A stretch of 41,024 nt of DNA from an uncultured Bacteroidales bacterium (lineage in GTDB: Bacteria; Bacteroidota; Bacteroidia; Bacteroidales; Paludibacteraceae): positions 1-41,024 of the forward strand of contig CACZOA010000001.1 in NCBI GenBank assembly GCA_902782665.1. Direction: 5' to 3'. Below the pieces are notes generated by a model. That model had not been told where the DNA came from and ran no database searches. It worked only from the letters and a program-made list of their open reading frames with translations. The position numbers and the translations under genes are program-made. The first letter of the stretch is position 1, and the number at the start of each line of letters is the position of its first letter. This document shows, piece by piece, positions 87 through 13,432 of this stretch.

Positions 87-181
87 TAGATGAAATGAGT
101 TTGGACAATCATCATAATTCATCGTTTTTGCCTTTTTATGCAATTTTTTTACTTTATTTGCATCATATAAAAACAAACGCC

Positions 182-931
182 ATGAAAATGAAAAAGCCCA
201 TTTTAGTCACATTCTCAATATATATGATGTTATGTTCTGCTGATCTTTATGCGGCAGATAGGAATAGAATAGCTCATGGTCATCTATATGAGTACAATTT
301 TCCATCACAACAAACAAAAGACACACTGGGGAAAGCCACAATTTATATGCCAGAAGCGAAGTCGGACCTGGACAGAGAAGTTCCGCCAGGACAACTGCCA
401 CAGTATATGAACCCGAACTACTACGGATACAAAGAGATCAGACAGAACACTTCAACAGAAACAAACTATAGCAATGACATTAACGCACCACATTATGGTG
501 AAAAAGTGTCAAAGAGACGTGCGACAAAAAACTCTTTTCAGATAAACTATTCAGATGGCATTTATCACTATCGCAATGGCATTTTCTATTTGCAGAAAAA
601 TGACCAATATGAGATTCACAAACCACACATAGGATTCAGAGTTCCGTCAATACCTGCAGAGCGACGCAAATATATGTTCGACGGCGTCGCATACTACTAT
701 TACTATGGCACATTCTACGTTTATGACCAAACAATCAAGATGTACGATGTCACCATTCCACCTGTGGGCGCGATTGTAGATTGGATTCCAGGGAATGCAG
801 AAAAAATTGAGATTGATGGCGAACTATTTTACGTCGCAAACGGAATACAATACAAAGACATATCATTGAATATGGCTAAACCAAAGTGGTATCAGATTGT
901 CGCTGTTGACGCAAACAAATACAAGGATTAA
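182..931 (+). CDS. Secreted DUF6515-like protein
   Basis: Predicted 249-residue exported protein of unknown function. The reading frame opens at 95, but the ATG at 182 gives a proper signal peptide (basic MKMKK start, hydrophobic stretch, cleavage near Ala-Asp). A promoter-like TTTATTTG at 153-160 lies just upstream of that ATG. The C-terminal half carries two Tyr-rich modules: a GIYHYRNGIFY segment, then a VAYYYYYGTFY segment, each followed by a Pro-rich PSIP/IPPVGA stretch. It ends in a GELFYVANGIQY segment and a YQIVAV tail. This matches my memory of the DUF6515 family of secreted proteins, whose role is not known. It is separated from the lipoprotein operon by about 130 bp and that operon has its own promoter, so the two are probably independent units. 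Confidence 0.7.
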   Translation: MKMKKPILVTFSIYMMLCSADLYAADRNRIAHGHLYEYNFPSQQTKDTLGKATIYMPEAKSDLDREVPPGQLPQYMNPNYYGYKEIRQNTSTETNYSNDINAPHYGEKVSKRRATKNSFQINYSDGIYHYRNGIFYLQKNDQYEIHKPHIGFRVPSIPAERRKYMFDGVAYYYYYGTFYVYDQTIKMYDVTIPPVGAIVDWIPGNAEKIEIDGELFYVANGIQYKDISLNMAKPKWYQIVAVDANKYKD

Positions 932-1000: not shown

Positions 1001-1031
1001 TTGTGGGTTCAACGCACTTGGATTATATTTG
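1001..1031 (+). promoter_or_regulatory. Bacteroidetes-type promoter of the rSAM/lipoprotein operon
   Basis: TTG at 1001-1003, a 20-bp spacer and TATATTTG at 1024-1031 fit the primary sigma factor consensus of this phylum. Transcription should begin near 1037. That excludes the GTG at 1003 as the start of the first lipoprotein and favours the ATG at 1063. Confidence 0.75.
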
Positions 1032-1062
1032 CAATTATAATAATTCGTGCGACGAGATGCCT

Positions 1063-1509
1063 ATGAGTAAATCTAAACTATATGCATGGCTTTTATCCAT
1101 ACTTGGATTTCAAATGCAAGGTTGCCATAACGGTGACTACTATGAGGAAATTGAAGATGTTGAATATGGATGTCCATATATACAGTTAAAAATTGATGGT
1201 GCTGTAAAGGACGAAAACGGCAATATAATACCAAGGGCAAACGTTTCAGTAAAGATCGAAGCGGTCACTAAAAAAGAAGAGCATAAAGATGTGAAGGTCG
1301 ATAATTCACTCACATGCGACAACGATGGAAAATTCCAAGTAGCTAATGGATTTTGCAACATGAGAAAATACGAAAAACTTAAATATGAAATCATCACACA
1401 CAGATACGGATACGAAAACGATACCATCCATAAAGAAAAAAAAGATCTGGAATCATCAAACGTTAACCTTTTGGACGAAATAAACATCGTCCTAAAGAAA
1501 AATAAATAA
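1063..1509 (+). CDS. rSAM-associated putative lipoprotein, paralog 1
   Basis: First of five tandem paralogs. From the ATG at 1063 the protein is 148 residues, and its N-terminus aligns residue for residue with paralog 4: both have Trp9 followed by the LGFQ motif and a lipobox Cys. An ATG two codons earlier (1057) is possible. After the lipobox come an acidic linker, the family motif VEYGCPY, a DENGN turn in a segment resembling a carboxypeptidase-regulatory beta-sandwich, a YEIIT..YGY segment and the C-terminal EINIVLKK. Besides the lipobox and YGC cysteines it has two more (in LTC and GFC). It is the most divergent copy in the middle region. It should be anchored to a membrane facing the periplasm or the surface. 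The family is known to me only as the lipoprotein partner of a dedicated radical SAM enzyme. Confidence 0.8.
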   Translation: MSKSKLYAWLLSILGFQMQGCHNGDYYEEIEDVEYGCPYIQLKIDGAVKDENGNIIPRANVSVKIEAVTKKEEHKDVKVDNSLTCDNDGKFQVANGFCNMRKYEKLKYEIITHRYGYENDTIHKEKKDLESSNVNLLDEINIVLKKNK

Positions 1510-1517
1510 AGACGAAT

Positions 1518-1958
1518 ATGAGATTAAAGAATTTTTTCCCTTGGCTGCTTGCCCTACTTGGATTCCAAATGCAAGGTTGCTTTCCTTTTTCAGGATTGGA
1601 ATACGGATGTTTGTACACGGAATTCAAAACCAGTGGCACTATACAAGATGAAAATGGCAAAAAAATAAAAAACGCTCATGTCAATGTAAAGGTCCAAGCC
1701 TATGACAGTAAAAACAATATTGTTTTTACTCAGACTAAAAATGAATCCAGCGACAATATTGGAAAATATGAAGTCAAATGTGGAGAATGCGATCTGACTA
1801 CTGATTTAGAAAAGATTGAATATGAAGTAATCACCAATGGTTTTAAAGATACTACCCGTAAAGAGATCGGAAAAAATGATATAAAAATCATTAAGAAAGG
1901 TGACGAAAAAAGAGTAATCAATCAAGAGATAAATGTAACCTTAAAAAGTAAATTATGA
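1518..1958 (+). CDS. rSAM-associated putative lipoprotein, paralog 2
   Basis: 146-residue paralog, 8 bp after paralog 1 and overlapping paralog 3 by 4 bp (ATGA), which points to translational coupling. It has a hydrophobic leader with the LGFQMQGC lipobox, then LEYGC followed by LYTEF instead of the PYTTF seen in paralogs 4 and 5. A DENGKKI turn, a VNVKV strand and a YEVIT segment follow. The usual DGY is degenerate here. The tail is EINVTLKSK. Extra cysteines lie in a KCGEC pair in the middle. It has no recognised catalytic residues. The fold looks like one small beta-sandwich domain on a lipid anchor. Confidence 0.8.
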   Translation: MRLKNFFPWLLALLGFQMQGCFPFSGLEYGCLYTEFKTSGTIQDENGKKIKNAHVNVKVQAYDSKNNIVFTQTKNESSDNIGKYEVKCGECDLTTDLEKIEYEVITNGFKDTTRKEIGKNDIKIIKKGDEKRVINQEINVTLKSKL

Positions 1959-2404
1959 AACTAGCAAAAATAACCACTTGGCTATTGGCTATACTTGGTT
2001 TTCAAATGCAGAGTTGTAGATATGAGACTGAAGAATACGGATGTCCTCACACAACATTCAAGACGACCGGTACGGTAAAGGATGAAAATGGCAATAAAAT
2101 AGAAGGTGCGGAAGTCAACGTGAAGATAGAAACTATTGTCAACAGACCTGAAGAACCCAAAGTGAAGGCCAACAAATCTACATTAAGTGACAACAATGGA
2201 GCATATCAAGTAAGTGACGGACGTTGCGACGGTACTGACAGATATGAAACTCTTCAATATGAAGTCATAACACGCAAAGATGGCTACAAACCTGACACCA
2301 TCATCAAAGAGGTAAGAAAAGAAGATCTAAAATTCAAGAAAGTTGACTCCTGGGACAAAAGCACGACTCAAGAAATTAACGTAGTTCTAAAAAAACACAA
2401 ATAA
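1955..2404 (+). CDS. rSAM-associated putative lipoprotein, paralog 3
   Basis: 149-residue paralog whose ATG overlaps the TGA of paralog 2. Lipobox region LGFQMQSC, then EEYGCPHTTFK, a DENGNKIEGAEVNVKI core nearly identical to that of paralog 5, a single additional cysteine in GRC, YEVIT..DGY, and EINVVLKK at the end. The near-identity of the core across copies beside very variable middle segments suggests recent duplication with divergence of one exposed loop. The function is not known. The tight packing with the radical SAM gene argues it is a substrate or partner of that enzyme. Confidence 0.8.
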   Translation: MKLAKITTWLLAILGFQMQSCRYETEEYGCPHTTFKTTGTVKDENGNKIEGAEVNVKIETIVNRPEEPKVKANKSTLSDNNGAYQVSDGRCDGTDRYETLQYEVITRKDGYKPDTIIKEVRKEDLKFKKVDSWDKSTTQEINVVLKKHK

Positions 2405-2408
2405 AATC

Positions 2409-2864
2409 ATGAAATTAACAAAACTTCTAACCTGGTTGCTGACCATACTTGGATTTCAGATGCTAAGCTGTACAGGAGAAGACGAATATGGATGTCCATA
2501 CACCACATATAAGACTTCTGGCACAGTAAATGACGAAAGTGGCAATAAAATACAAGGAGCGGAAGTCAATGTGAAGATTGACGCAATTATTGAGAAACGA
2601 GATTCGTCAGGCACATACAACGATACCATTAATCGTACCGTTCAAACAACTTTCTCCGACAAAAAAGGGCATTACGAAACTAATCACGGAGATCTGAATG
2701 GGTATAATGCATTGAGCTATGAGGTCATCACCCAAAAAGATGGCTACGAACCAGACACCATCCGCAAAGAGGTAAATAGATCAGACTTCAGATTCAAAAG
2801 ATCAGGTGATTGGGAAACAATCGCGTCTAACGAAATAAACATTGTGCTTAAGAAAAATAAATAG
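2409..2864 (+). CDS. rSAM-associated putative lipoprotein, paralog 4
   Basis: 151-residue paralog, 4 bp downstream of paralog 3. Short basic leader, LGFQMLSC lipobox, then the EDEYGCPYTTYK motif within ten residues of the lipid anchor. A DESGNKIQGAEVNVKI core is followed by a variable Thr/Ser/Asp-rich segment, YEVIT..DGY and EINIVLKK. It contains only two cysteines, the lipobox Cys and the one in YGC, unlike paralogs 1-3. That makes the YGC cysteine the only conserved free thiol in the mature part of every copy. Confidence 0.8.
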   Translation: MKLTKLLTWLLTILGFQMLSCTGEDEYGCPYTTYKTSGTVNDESGNKIQGAEVNVKIDAIIEKRDSSGTYNDTINRTVQTTFSDKKGHYETNHGDLNGYNALSYEVITQKDGYEPDTIRKEVNRSDFRFKRSGDWETIASNEINIVLKKNK

Positions 2865-2866
2865 AC

Positions 2867-3349
2867 ATGAAAACATCAAAACTTTTCGCTGCTTTATTGG
2901 CTATATTAGGGTTTCAAGTCCAAAGTTGTACAAAAGAAGATGATGGCAACAACGGTGGCGGTTCTGAAGAATATGGTTGTCCATATACAACATTCAGGAC
3001 TAATGGCACCGTACAAGACGAGAATGGCAATAAGATAGAAGGTGCAGAAGTCAACGTGAATATTAACGTCATCATTGAAAGACAGGATTCCACCGGCACT
3101 ACACGCAATGATACTATCGATCATTTAAGCAACTCCTCCTTCAGCAACAAAAAAGGAAACTATGAAGTAGCCATTGGAGGAAATCCCTATCAAGCCACTC
3201 TTAACTACGAAGTCATCACCAACAAAGATGGTTACGAACCCGACACCGTCCGTAAAGAGGTCCAATCAAAGGATTTGGAACAAGTAAAAGAAGGGAAATG
3301 GGGAACCACAATTAAAAATAAAATAGACATCGTTCTAAAGAAAAAATAA
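2867..3349 (+). CDS. rSAM-associated putative lipoprotein, paralog 5
   Basis: 160-residue paralog, 2 bp after paralog 4 and 3 bp before the radical SAM gene. Leader with LGFQVQSC, then a longer Asp/Asn/Gly-rich linker (residues 24-33) before EEYGCPYTTF. A DENGNKIEGAEVNV core, a variable Ser/Asn-rich loop, YEVIT..DGY and IDIVLKK follow. Only two cysteines are present. The glycine/asparagine linker after the lipid anchor would hold the domain away from the membrane. It has the same family assignment as the four preceding genes. Confidence 0.8.
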   Translation: MKTSKLFAALLAILGFQVQSCTKEDDGNNGGGSEEYGCPYTTFRTNGTVQDENGNKIEGAEVNVNINVIIERQDSTGTTRNDTIDHLSNSSFSNKKGNYEVAIGGNPYQATLNYEVITNKDGYEPDTVRKEVQSKDLEQVKEGKWGTTIKNKIDIVLKKK

Positions 3350-3352
3350 AGG

Positions 3353-4423
3353 ATGGCAGAAAAGAAGATTTCTATCCGCAAAAGATTAGGTTTAGAACTT
3401 GCCCGTAAGATAAGGAAAGATACCGATCCTGTACTGCGCACTTTATTTTGGGAATGCACTTTGCGTTGTAATGCGGCATGCAGGCATTGCGGAAGCGACT
3501 GCAAAGCGACTGCGAACAGCAAGGATATGCCGGCTGAGGATTTCTTGAAAGTGATAGACAGTCTGACACCGCATGTGGACACCCACAAAACTTTCATCAT
3601 CTTCACAGGTGGAGAAGCTCTTGTCAGACCGGATATTGACTATGTCGGCACAGAGCTGAACAAACGTGAATATCCTTGGGGCATCGTCTCAAACGGATAC
3701 CTTCTCAACGAAGAACGTCTGAAACGTCTGAAAACAGCAGGAATGCACTCCATCACCATCAGTCTGGATGGTTTCGAAGAGGCTCACGACTGGATGCGTC
3801 GCATACCCAATGGATTCAAACACGCAGTGGAAGCCATAAAACTATTAGCCGCAGACAAAGATCTGATTTACGACGTCGTGACTTGCGCAAACCAGAAGAA
3901 CTATGATTCACTTGCTGAGTTCAGAGATTTTCTCATCAGCATAGGAGTGAAAGCATGGAGAATATTCACCGTATTCCCTGTAGGACGAGCAGCAGACAAC
4001 CCGGAATTACAGCTGAACGACCGACAATTTACAGACCTGATGAAGTTTATCGCAGACACTCGTAAAGAGTGTAAAATAAAGGTGAGCTATGGATGCGAAG
4101 GCTTCTTAGGAGGCTATGAGACGGAGGTGCGTGACACATTCTACCAATGCAATGCAGGCAAACATGTCGGGTCTATCCTTGCCGACGGAAGTATATCAGC
4201 CTGTCCGAGTATCAGAGCCAACTACCACCAAGGCAACATCTACACAGATGATTTCTGGGATGTGTGGACCAACCGCTACCAAGTGTTCCGCGACCGCAGT
4301 TGGATGAAGAAAGACGAATGTGGCGACTGCAAGATGTTCCGTTACTGCGAAGGCAACGGATTCCACTTGCGAGACGAGAATGGCAAACTGCTGTTTTGTC
4401 ATTACCACCGTCTGCTTGACTGA
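3353..4423 (+). CDS. Radical SAM/SPASM enzyme of the rSAM/lipoprotein system
   Basis: 356-residue radical S-adenosylmethionine enzyme. The [4Fe-4S] motif is C39-x3-C43-x2-C46 with an aromatic-poor NAACRHC form, and the SAM-binding GGE motif is at 86-88. A C-terminal SPASM-type region carries Cys 248, 266, 284, 323, 326, 332 and 349, enough for auxiliary clusters. SPASM enzymes commonly modify ribosomally made peptides or proteins. This one follows five lipoprotein paralogs with only 3 bp between, and I recognise the pair as the rSAM/lipoprotein arrangement described by protein family models in Bacteroidetes (TIGR04133/TIGR04134, from memory). The lipoproteins are therefore the likely substrates, but the chemistry is unknown. 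The gene looks more GC-rich than its lipoprotein neighbours. It is the last gene of the operon, before a strong terminator. Confidence 0.88.
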   Translation: MAEKKISIRKRLGLELARKIRKDTDPVLRTLFWECTLRCNAACRHCGSDCKATANSKDMPAEDFLKVIDSLTPHVDTHKTFIIFTGGEALVRPDIDYVGTELNKREYPWGIVSNGYLLNEERLKRLKTAGMHSITISLDGFEEAHDWMRRIPNGFKHAVEAIKLLAADKDLIYDVVTCANQKNYDSLAEFRDFLISIGVKAWRIFTVFPVGRAADNPELQLNDRQFTDLMKFIADTRKECKIKVSYGCEGFLGGYETEVRDTFYQCNAGKHVGSILADGSISACPSIRANYHQGNIYTDDFWDVWTNRYQVFRDRSWMKKDECGDCKMFRYCEGNGFHLRDENGKLLFCHYHRLLD

Positions 4424-4457
4424 CCATTACAAGACAAGAAATTTGAATTCCACATAC

Positions 4458-4494
4458 AAAAAAGGAAGGCTTAACAGTTAAGCCTTCCTTTTTT
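4458..4494. terminator. Bidirectional intrinsic terminator
   Basis: A perfect 17-bp stem (4458-4474 with 4478-4494) around a 3-nt loop, with A runs and T runs at the two ends. It can end the rSAM operon on the plus strand and the convergent Ig-repeat gene on the minus strand. Confidence 0.9.
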
Positions 4495-4529: not shown

Positions 4530-6869
4530 TCAATGTAGCAAAGTGACGTGACCAACATACTGTTTGTCAGATTCAACCACATCTATCACATACCAATAAT
4601 CTGTAGACGGAAGGATTCTGCCTCTGTAATCTTTTCCATCCCAGCTGTTTTCTTGATTATCATAGGCATTGAATTCTCTGACAATCTTACCCATTCTATC
4701 ATAGATTGTCACAGTTATGTCAGAATATAATTCGACATTCTTTATGATCCATCTATCATTTTCTCCGTCCGAATTAGGAGTGAAGACCATTTCTGGAATA
4801 AGATCAGCTTTAGACTCATATGCTCGTGTAAGAGTCAAATAAACGATACTATCACAATTTGTCGCACTGACTAGTGTGACTGTATACTCGCCAGCCTCTG
4901 AATACTCGGCATCTCCTATTTTATAGGTCTCATCACCCTTAATGACCGCCTTGACATGCTGTTTCTTGGCACTGTTGATTACTACTGGCGTCGTCAAACT
5001 GAATGATTTTCCTTTATATTCATATTTGACGGAATAAATACCAGAATTCGATTTTGTGACACCGTCAATAGTTGGGTTTTGTTCTGTCGACTTAAACTTG
5101 TTTGGTCCGGTCCATTCATAAGAGACTCCTTCAGGAGCATCATCGATGTAGAGAGACAAACTTTCTCCCTCACACAATGGACTATTACTAGAAACTATAG
5201 CAGGGGCAATCTCCTCAACAAACAACTTAAGAGTGACTATACTGTCACATCCAGTTGCTGAACTAACCAACGTGTCTTGATATGTGCCAGGAACGGATAT
5301 CTGCTGGCCATTGAATGAGATCGTTTCTCCCTGACGAATAGTAGAATCTATCTCCACACGTGTTTTTTCTGTTATCACAACCTCTGTTTCAACTACAGGC
5401 AATTCGTAGCCGTTGACAGTAGCTACAAGCGAGTATAATCCAGCATTATCACTAGTTGTCATATTGATGACAGGCTCTTTTTGGTCGGAAGTGAATCCAT
5501 TTGGACCAGTCCATAAGAATGTAGCGTCTTCAGGAGATTTGAGAACTTCAAAAGAAATTGCATTTCCTTCGCATACAGGACTATTACTAGAAACCACAAC
5601 AGGATCATATTTCAATACCGTAAGTGAAAGGTTGACAATACTATCACAACCAGTGACCTCACTTGTAAATGTCTTTTGATATTCTCCAGTAGTTGTTAAA
5701 ATCTCATCTCCGAATATGTAAGATTCGCCCTCTTTAATCTCCTTCGTTATATCAACGACATGTCGTTTGTTAACCACAACAGGCACCTCAACTTCATCAG
5801 AAGAGACCCCGTTAGAAACCATCACAACAGTATATATACCAGCATTCTCTTGTGTGACATTGGAGATAGTAGGGTTCTTTTCCGTCGAAACAAATCCATT
5901 TGGACCTGTCCATAAGAATGTGGCGTTCTCAGGAGCATTGTTGACATCCAATTCAAAAGACTCCCCTTCACACACTGGGCCGACAGTCATTGCGTCAACA
6001 ATAATCTTACAATTGGTTGTTGCAGATCCCGAAGTCTTATCAAAAGAAATTGTACCTGGTTTTTGAGAATAGTTTGTAACTAAGAATAAATACCACTCGC
6101 CAGTTTTTGCATCTGGAATATAGCAAAATTCCTTACTACTGGTACTATAACTACAATCGACTATAGATTCCAATGGATAATTGTCATTATAACCTCTAAA
6201 ACAAGGATTTGTTATATCAAATTGTACTGGATCCGGAGGATAAATTGCATGTTCTTTCTGTGCTGTTTCATCAATACATTCCATTAAATTTTCATATTCT
6301 GCCTCACAATATTCCTCATATTCTTGATCAGAATTAAAATCAAAATAATTCAACAGGAAAAAACGACTACTGCAATCATTATATATGCTATCCTCCAAAT
6401 CCATTACTCGATTATATTCATCCAAATAACTCTGAGTATAACATGTGTCTGATGGGCTATATACATCAAAGATACTGAGGTCATCCTCAACATTATATAT
6501 TGTAATATCTTCATTAATACTATTGATCACCTCCTGTTTGTTCTTTCCCTTGAATGGTCCATAACAAGCAAAATCAACATCATATCCTTCAGAATGTTCC
6601 ATTGTGATACCCAGCATTCCAGGTTCATCAATCTGCATAATAAACCATTGAGGAGACAATGTACTTCCTAAACATCCGCTAGAAAAATCAAACGCTTCTT
6701 CTCCAGAAGTTCCTGCAGGAAAACTAATTGCCAAATCATTCTCTTCTGTACAAAAAGGAACTACATCTTCATTAGAAAAGAACTCCTGTGCTTTTATCTG
6801 CATGTCAATTCCAATCATAATGAAAAACAGTAACAAAATTCTACCTGTTATTCTTTTTCTCATACACAT
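4530..6869 (-). CDS. Large surface protein with Ig-like repeats and T9SS type B sorting domain
   Basis: 779-residue exported protein. It begins with a basic signal peptide (about 1-27), then a Cys-rich N-terminal domain (30-290) with WFIMQI and GTISF strands, resembling the jelly-roll modules common in T9SS cargo. Next come three Ig/PKD-like repeats (about 295-365, 425-500, 555-632), each opening with VCEGE or a close variant and carrying WTGPNGF or a variant. They alternate with small modules ending in GCDSIV or NCDSIV. The last 85 residues (from FTPNSDGENDRW) form the gliding-motility-associated C-terminal (type B) domain that sends proteins through the type IX secretion system. It probably serves as an adhesin or surface structural protein. 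No enzyme motif is visible. It has its own promoter at 6922-6952. Confidence 0.88.
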   Translation of the reverse strand: MCMRKRITGRILLLFFIMIGIDMQIKAQEFFSNEDVVPFCTEENDLAISFPAGTSGEEAFDFSSGCLGSTLSPQWFIMQIDEPGMLGITMEHSEGYDVDFACYGPFKGKNKQEVINSINEDITIYNVEDDLSIFDVYSPSDTCYTQSYLDEYNRVMDLEDSIYNDCSSRFFLLNYFDFNSDQEYEEYCEAEYENLMECIDETAQKEHAIYPPDPVQFDITNPCFRGYNDNYPLESIVDCSYSTSSKEFCYIPDAKTGEWYLFLVTNYSQKPGTISFDKTSGSATTNCKIIVDAMTVGPVCEGESFELDVNNAPENATFLWTGPNGFVSTEKNPTISNVTQENAGIYTVVMVSNGVSSDEVEVPVVVNKRHVVDITKEIKEGESYIFGDEILTTTGEYQKTFTSEVTGCDSIVNLSLTVLKYDPVVVSSNSPVCEGNAISFEVLKSPEDATFLWTGPNGFTSDQKEPVINMTTSDNAGLYSLVATVNGYELPVVETEVVITEKTRVEIDSTIRQGETISFNGQQISVPGTYQDTLVSSATGCDSIVTLKLFVEEIAPAIVSSNSPLCEGESLSLYIDDAPEGVSYEWTGPNKFKSTEQNPTIDGVTKSNSGIYSVKYEYKGKSFSLTTPVVINSAKKQHVKAVIKGDETYKIGDAEYSEAGEYTVTLVSATNCDSIVYLTLTRAYESKADLIPEMVFTPNSDGENDRWIIKNVELYSDITVTIYDRMGKIVREFNAYDNQENSWDGKDYRGRILPSTDYWYVIDVVESDKQYVGHVTLLH

Positions 6870-13235: not shown

Positions 13236-13432
13236 TGCCACGCCGTCAATTGATTGTTAAACTTTACAATTATAACAACATTCCGGGTGAAATTGTCGTA
13301 TACAATGGCGGGCCTCGACTCAAGGTTGCTTGCAGCCTTGTTTTGCATCGCACGGAGGATTACAAAGTAGACGCGTACCCCAATTCCTTATTTCAGAGGA
13401 GTTTAATTTAATCACGGCGTGGCATTTTTGTT
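13236..13432 (+). ncRNA. Candidate rod-shaped structured RNA of about 195 nt
   Basis: The 5' and 3' ends pair perfectly over 13 bp (13234-13246 with 13414-13426). A second helix follows at 13257-13265 with 13398-13406. Inside are GGGT near 13285 with ACCC at 13377-13380, CCTC near 13313 with GAGG, and an 8-bp apical hairpin (13321-13328 with 13333-13340) closed by a CTTG tetraloop. A promoter abuts the 5' end and a T-rich tract follows the 3' arm. The region is locally GC-rich for this genome and has no reading frame. The overall shape and length recall 6S RNA (the Bacteroidales-1 motif), but I cannot confirm a family. It could instead be the leader of the gene at 13532. Confidence 0.5.

Follow-up and report, generated by a model that had tools for sequence, protein, structure and literature searches.

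The window analysed here, a stretch of 41,024 nucleotides from an uncultured Bacteroidales bacterium of the Paludibacteraceae (GenBank assembly GCA_902782665.1, contig CACZOA010000001.1), contains a plus-strand operon in which five small lipoprotein genes precede a gene for a radical S-adenosylmethionine (SAM) enzyme with a SPASM domain. The lipoproteins share a Tyr-Gly site shortly behind the cysteine that is lipidated, and we propose that the enzyme splices this X-Tyr-Gly site in all five exported proteins, a reading of the sequences to which we assign a probability of about 0.58. It is very probable that the lipoproteins are the substrates of the enzyme, and tyramine excision is the reaction we would somewhat favour. 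The chemistry, which an earlier note on this DNA had left open, can be narrowed in this way to one proposal, tyramine excision at X-Tyr-Gly.

The site reads E-Y-G-C-P in four of the lipoproteins and E-Y-G-C-L in one, EYG being common to all five. To look at the site in relatives, we collected 114 enzyme open reading frames (ORFs) whose phmmer score against the window enzyme was 230 or more, a set that consists of the window and loci L092-L191 and L209-L219 and includes 12 enzymes (L190, L209-L219) below the cut-off of TIGR04133, the family of the window enzyme. Tyr-Gly-x-Pro had first stood out as the one constant feature when the ORFs next to the enzymes were read. The motif test itself was not biased towards YGxP: all 8000 motifs of the form a-b-x-c were compared, and each locus was scored by same-strand ORFs located up to 1.5 kb upstream of the enzyme. 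YGxP ranked first with 95 of the 114 loci, followed by LLxL with 61-63, and the median was 6. The opposite strand, taken as a control, had YGxP at 9 of 114 loci, and near-miss motifs on the same strand were found at a handful of them (GYxP 4, FGxP 1, YAxP 3, YGxA 6). Of the 19 loci that have no upstream YGxP, six contain YG without the proline upstream, seven have a YG partner downstream, one has the motif 2.75 kb upstream, two are truncated by a contig end and three have none.

YGxP was present within 120 residues after the cysteine in 120 of the 146 lipobox ORFs just upstream of the enzyme versus 6 of the 100 other lipobox ORFs of the same loci, a comparison that includes loci of relatives overlapping in species with the draw of genomes from the order described below (e.g. 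L072, L095). The YG-carrying partners are of different types, namely lipoproteins with a beta domain, short ones lacking this domain, and non-lipidated exported proteins with AQYGAP. The simplest explanation for a motif that persists on scaffolds so different is that the enzyme acts there. Some partners contain two or three copies of the motif (L121, L157, L158). At L157, a protein with three YGPPPG units spaced by 20 residues is encoded 134-254 bp after a TIGR04133 enzyme.

The residue that follows YG is variable, with T in 66, S in 19, V in 19 and C in 10 of 164 partner ORFs. A thioether directed to the cysteine of E-Y-G-C-P was considered and set aside, since the following residue elsewhere is mostly Thr, Ser or Val. 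The same variability bears on a second possibility, that the lipoproteins are the substrates and Tyr-Gly is the site but that another radical reaction takes place there: a Tyr cross-link, chemistry at the Gly alpha-carbon, epimerisation or Tyr oxidation. We consider this rather unlikely, since Tyr and Gly are kept jointly while the next residue changes, a pattern that fits X-Tyr-Gly and not a Cys thioether, and since YGxP also occurs in a PlpXY splice tag and in the precursor of a PlpX-like enzyme.

The system known for such a site is PlpXY of Pleurocapsa (PlpX WP_019503880.1 according to an excerpt of PMC11002830), which likewise combines a radical SAM/SPASM enzyme with X-Tyr-Gly in the partner. 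Passages of PMC10533398 and PMC11002830 describe that these "spliceases" excise tyramine from X-Tyr-Gly with the loss of C8H9NO (-135 Da), that one of the tags tested was RPLYGLPI within a longer peptide and that other tags, for example AAGYGVVFP, do not have Pro at this position. The partners in the window are exported lipoproteins, whereas those of PlpXY are precursors with Nif11 or NHLP leaders. A Nostoc enzyme annotated as nif11-class peptide radical SAM maturase 3 (TIGR04103) has a neighbouring precursor that ends with ALYGLPPELF. PlpX itself presumably falls within TIGR04103, judging by its description in PMC11002830. The enzyme of genome G165 is intermediate, with 218 bits for TIGR04103 and 181 bits for TIGR04133, and downstream of it (L223, 5825-6050, plus strand) a lipobox-free protein with six KYGYP units is encoded, which looks like a multi-site substrate. 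Because of the shared motif and the moderate kinship of the enzymes, the TIGR04133 enzymes would be lipoprotein spliceases.

PlpX-like enzymes of Flavobacteriia, Aureibacter and Azospirillum (L192, L193, L207, L229) adjoin small proteins of the DUF1843 type, several of which have YG near the N-terminus. Not every enzyme on the PlpX side has such a neighbour: at L196, L198, L208 and L224, for example, no convincing YG partner was found within the short flanking stretches.

Several observations weigh against this interpretation. Tyramine excision is a proposal from the sequences, and no chemistry was observed. The 114 loci come from related genomes and are not independent, and three of them have no YG partner. 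In 40 of 164 partner ORFs, Tyr is the residue right behind the lipobox Cys, and splicing there would still have to permit cleavage of the signal peptide. PlpX works with a small helper protein, PlpY, for which the interval from the enzyme gene to the convergent gene showed no candidate ORF, although no search with a PlpY profile was made. The SPASM cysteines of the window enzyme differ from those of the Nostoc enzyme, to which it is 26.8% identical, and in profile searches it scored 133 bits with NirJ2, 128 with AhbD, 128 with TIGR04053 and 123 with TIGR04103. These ranks fail to single out TIGR04103, and trees were therefore made; in them, TIGR04133 and the splicease-type rows form a single group with a support of only 69/59. 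Among the proteins, those of the lipoprotein family in genome G227 (given as 94% complete) retain YG, and yet this genome has no TIGR04133 enzyme above the cut-off; three proteins of TIGR04134, the lipoprotein family, have no YG, the enzyme being absent from two of the genomes concerned and present in the third.

The trees place TIGR04133 nearer to the splicease-type enzymes than to NirJ, TIGR04053 or the mycofactocin enzymes, with weak positive support. TIGR04133 falls on the TIGR04103-like side of a tree with 56 rows, and topologies constrained to unite it with NirJ/TIGR04053 or with the mycofactocin enzyme MftC were rejected by the approximately unbiased (AU) test (p 0.00589 and 0.00429, respectively); the position of AcgM in this tree is unsure owing to a long branch. 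A first tree had included PqqE, one TIGR04347 enzyme, one Rhizobium enzyme, L220-L222 and L236, which were dropped later, mainly for their long branches, and a second one added two NirJ, AcgM, a second MftC and a second TIGR04053. In the trees, the nearest peptide-modifying group consists of TIGR04103 and the GDL/DUF1843-associated maturases, some of which adjoin small XYG-bearing proteins. The window enzyme is a relative of TIGR04103 and not a member of it (123 bits versus a cut-off of 725).

The proteins without YG were found in a survey of orphans, which asked whether YG is kept where the enzyme is absent and covered 18 of 20 stretches (all except L262 and L263), with a small and mixed outcome. 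The TIGR04134-family members of G306 and G369, the latter a genome that is 75% complete, contain no YG, and G129 has the enzyme yet also one lipoprotein copy without YG. L258 adjoins an enzyme after all, and in a match below the cut-off (L261), YG occurs only at a long distance from the N-terminus. The proteins without YG can be quoted for an alternative in which the lipoproteins are partners only, the enzyme modifies another molecule and YGxP serves for docking or as a structural motif: the domain has a use without the site, even alongside the enzyme in one of the three cases, and no modified lipoprotein was seen here. This alternative is nonetheless improbable, as a modified core, and not a structural element, would typically lie on a flexible tether, occur in two to six copies in some partners and recur on unrelated scaffolds, as this motif does.

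The five lipoproteins are roughly 40-60% identical to each other, and each begins with a signal peptide ending in LGFQxxxC; the lipobox cysteine of lipoprotein 1 is residue 21, numbered from the start at 1063. The earlier note had named TIGR04133 and TIGR04134 as the matching families and suggested a search with hidden Markov models, and this search bore the names out: the enzyme passes TIGR04133 with 576.8 bits over residues 8-354 (NCBIfam, cut-off 425), and lipoproteins 1, 3, 4 and 5 pass TIGR04134, with lipoprotein 2 (36.0 bits) falling short of the cut-off of 39.8. The genome to which the window belongs (88% complete) has one TIGR04133 match above the cut-off and no TIGR04134 matches other than these five. 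In an alignment of 26 lipoproteins, the invariant residues are M1, L14, G15, C21, Y36, G37 and D126 in the numbering of lipoprotein 5. One might guess that the conserved L14-G15 of the signal peptide could belong to a recognition element.

In the structure model of lipoprotein 5, the site lies on a tether of low confidence and a beta-sandwich starts at residue 40; the model thus puts E-Y-G-C-P on a flexible linker that runs from the lipidated cysteine to a transthyretin-like domain. The matches of the lipoproteins to CarboxypepD_reg of Pfam are below the gathering score. Transthyretin-like/CarboxypepD_reg domains, such as the one at the N-terminus of the SusC-type transporter BT3090, are among the closest known systems, but in the window the domain comes after a short, lipid-anchored tether that contains YG. 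According to the abstract of PMC5080379, the signal for surface export of Bacteroidetes lipoproteins is K-(D/E)2 or Q-A-(D/E)2 near the mature N-terminus. Lipoprotein 5 alone has C-T-K-E-D, which contains K-(D/E)2, and the other four are acidic near the cysteine without the motif there; this hints at a possible display of lipoprotein 5 on the outside of the cell. The expectation of the earlier note that the operon decorates the envelope with modified lipoproteins holds in part: the modification is strongly suggested because of the shared Y-G-x-P site, whereas display on the outer surface is hinted at weakly.

Under the proposed mechanism, the operon would give rise to five exported lipoproteins, each having one X-Tyr-Gly-x-(Pro) site a few residues past the lipidated cysteine. 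The dedicated enzyme would act on this site in the cytoplasm, before export, and the reaction at X-Tyr-Gly would be an excision of tyramine that leaves an electrophilic ketoamide. The modified proteins would then be exported, lipidated and set on the envelope, where the ketoamide near the anchor could trap a nucleophile, for example in the active site of a protease. A passage of PMC11117315 that cites Scott 2022 states that spliceotide products are protease inhibitors, which might point to a role for the modified lipoproteins. Display on the outside and trapping of a nucleophile are put forward here only tentatively.

The enzyme matches Radical_SAM (71.9 bits, cut-off 29.5) and SPASM (32.4 bits, cut-off 21.5) of Pfam. 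The features on which it had first been called a radical SAM/SPASM enzyme are present, namely CxxxCxxC (C39, C43 and C46), GGE (residues 86-88) and seven C-terminal cysteines (248, 266, 284, 323, 326, 332 and 349), all of them invariant across 23 aligned sequences, the window included. The canonical seven-cysteine SPASM pattern contains the block CX2CX5CX3C. The seven cysteines observed deviate from this set, with Gly336 in place of the last cysteine of the block and C248 as an extra invariant cysteine. SPASM enzymes are the closest matches to the structure model of the enzyme among the Foldseek candidates, to which structural re-alignment was applied, and a sequence search of the PDB gave just three matches, all distant.

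The enzyme and lipoprotein families occur together. In a draw of 393 genomes of the order, TIGR04134 was above the cut-off in 58 genomes, TIGR04133 in 87 and both in 53, compared with 12.8 expected; a draw of 375 genomes from the class gave four with TIGR04134 above the cut-off, of which three belong to the order, with the genome of the window among them. Counted with a regular expression, which misses true partners (e.g. L097, L146, L186) and may admit false ones, a lipobox-YG ORF lies upstream or downstream of the enzyme at 99 of the 114 loci, and the number of contiguous upstream lipobox-YG ORFs is 0 at 22 loci, 1 at 64, 2 at 19, 3 at 8 and 5 at one, which is the window. The lipoprotein genes adjoin the enzyme gene as in most relatives among the matches listed, and the window, with five per operon, has the maximum of the set. 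Five copies had been called a notable expansion, to be compared with the copies per genome; counted per locus, this is indeed the highest number. A strain of Parabacteroides distasonis, a cultivable commensal relative, has one such pair. A lipoprotein-enzyme pair is also found on plasmid pTS1 of the spirochaete Treponema saccharophilum (L205, 3556-5032, plus strand), with the site SCYGMPENYY and a serine recombinase gene upstream, possibly pointing to a transfer out of the Bacteroidales.

The nearest full-length relatives in named genomes, metagenome-assembled genomes labelled Paludibacteraceae or Bacteroidales, have enzymes that are 91-99% identical to that of the window. One of them (L068) likewise has five lipoproteins, and its numbers 1-4 share 92-98% identity with their counterparts in the window. 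L066 and L067, with enzymes of 99 and 98% identity, have four lipoproteins, none of them close to number 2 or number 3, and lipoprotein 5 is 85.6% identical to its counterpart in L067 and 73% to that in L068. This comparison shows a turnover of array members by gain, loss and exchange beside an enzyme that stays nearly constant. An ordinary local duplication with no meaning beyond dosage, for which the 64 of 114 loci with a single upstream lipobox-YG ORF and the differences in array size among close relatives could be quoted, is unlikely to be all there is to the five copies, since they have diverged to about 40-60% identity and still contain the site in all five, and the turnover of members under an almost unchanged enzyme looks like diversification; duplication can, however, hold together with the splicing of X-Tyr-Gly. 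A more far-reaching and quite doubtful idea takes the array for a rapidly changing collection of covalent protease traps tethered to the membrane, in which one constant splicease-type enzyme would install a Glu-derived alpha-ketoamide beside the lipid anchor of five different display domains, with gain, loss and recombination reshuffling the set between strains and the enzyme remaining almost identical.

Both families were known before, and the reading of Y-G-x-P as the substrate site of the partners is new. The TIGR04133 and TIGR04134 models (rSAM_w_lipo and lipo_with_rSAM) name no function. A literature search with both identifiers and their name forms found none naming these families among the papers it covered, and a search that combined splicease or ketoamide chemistry with radical SAM lipoproteins of Bacteroid- gave no match. 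A passage of PMC10533398 citing Scott 2022 mentions 27 other characterised and 939 predicted splicease systems, and the TIGR04133 enzymes may already be among the latter. For a pair that is common in Bacteroidales and has no named function, the proposal names a definite substrate site and predicts a mass shift. If it is true, backbone splicing with loss of tyramine would extend beyond peptide natural products and equip the cell envelope with keto groups that are reactive and could be chemically labelled.

The ORF coordinates (Table 1) agree with the arrangement described earlier, an operon of six genes with gaps of -4 to 8 bp between the lipoprotein genes and 3 bp before the enzyme gene; in order, the gaps are 8, -4, 4, 2 and 3 bp.

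Table 1. Features of the lipoprotein-enzyme operon in the window.
Feature	Position	Strand	Basis
Promoter-like site TTG-N20-TATATTTG	1001..1031	+	Match to the Bacteroidetes -33/-7 consensus only
Lipoprotein 1	1063..1509 (alternative ATG 1057)	+	ORF; TIGR04134 44.6 bits
Site E-Y-G-C-P of lipoprotein 1	1162..1176	+	Translation, alignment
Lipoprotein 2	1518..1958	+	ORF; TIGR04134 36.0 bits, under the cut-off of 39.8
Site E-Y-G-C-L (no Pro) of lipoprotein 2	1599..1613	+	Translation, alignment
Lipoprotein 3	1955..2404	+	ORF; TIGR04134 51.8 bits
Site E-Y-G-C-P of lipoprotein 3	2033..2047	+	Translation, alignment
Lipoprotein 4	2409..2864	+	ORF; TIGR04134 49.8 bits
Site E-Y-G-C-P of lipoprotein 4	2484..2498	+	Translation, alignment
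Lipoprotein 5	2867..3349	+	ORF; TIGR04134 55.5 bits; structure model
Site E-Y-G-C-P of lipoprotein 5	2969..2983	+	Translation, alignment
Radical SAM/SPASM enzyme	3353..4423	+	TIGR04133 576.8 bits; Pfam Radical_SAM and SPASM; structure model
Perfect hairpin of 17 bp between the operon and the convergent gene	4458..4494		Likely terminator

A single promoter had been assigned to the operon. The site at the upstream end, the sole plus-strand occurrence of TAnnTTTG between 800 and 4600, is a candidate for this promoter by its match to the Bacteroidetes -33/-7 consensus; a scan for sigma-70 promoters gave results no better than with shuffled sequences.

The upstream neighbour (95-931, plus strand) matches DUF6515 (78.7 bits, cut-off 24.9). 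The convergent neighbour (4530-6869, minus strand) encodes a protein of 779 amino acids with Ig/PKD-like domains and a type B sorting domain for type IX secretion (78.7 bits, cut-off 35). Further downstream, at 13241-13430 on the plus strand, the window contains a Bacteroidales-1 RNA (Rfam RF01693, suggested to be 6S-like), with 66 bits versus a gathering score of 60.

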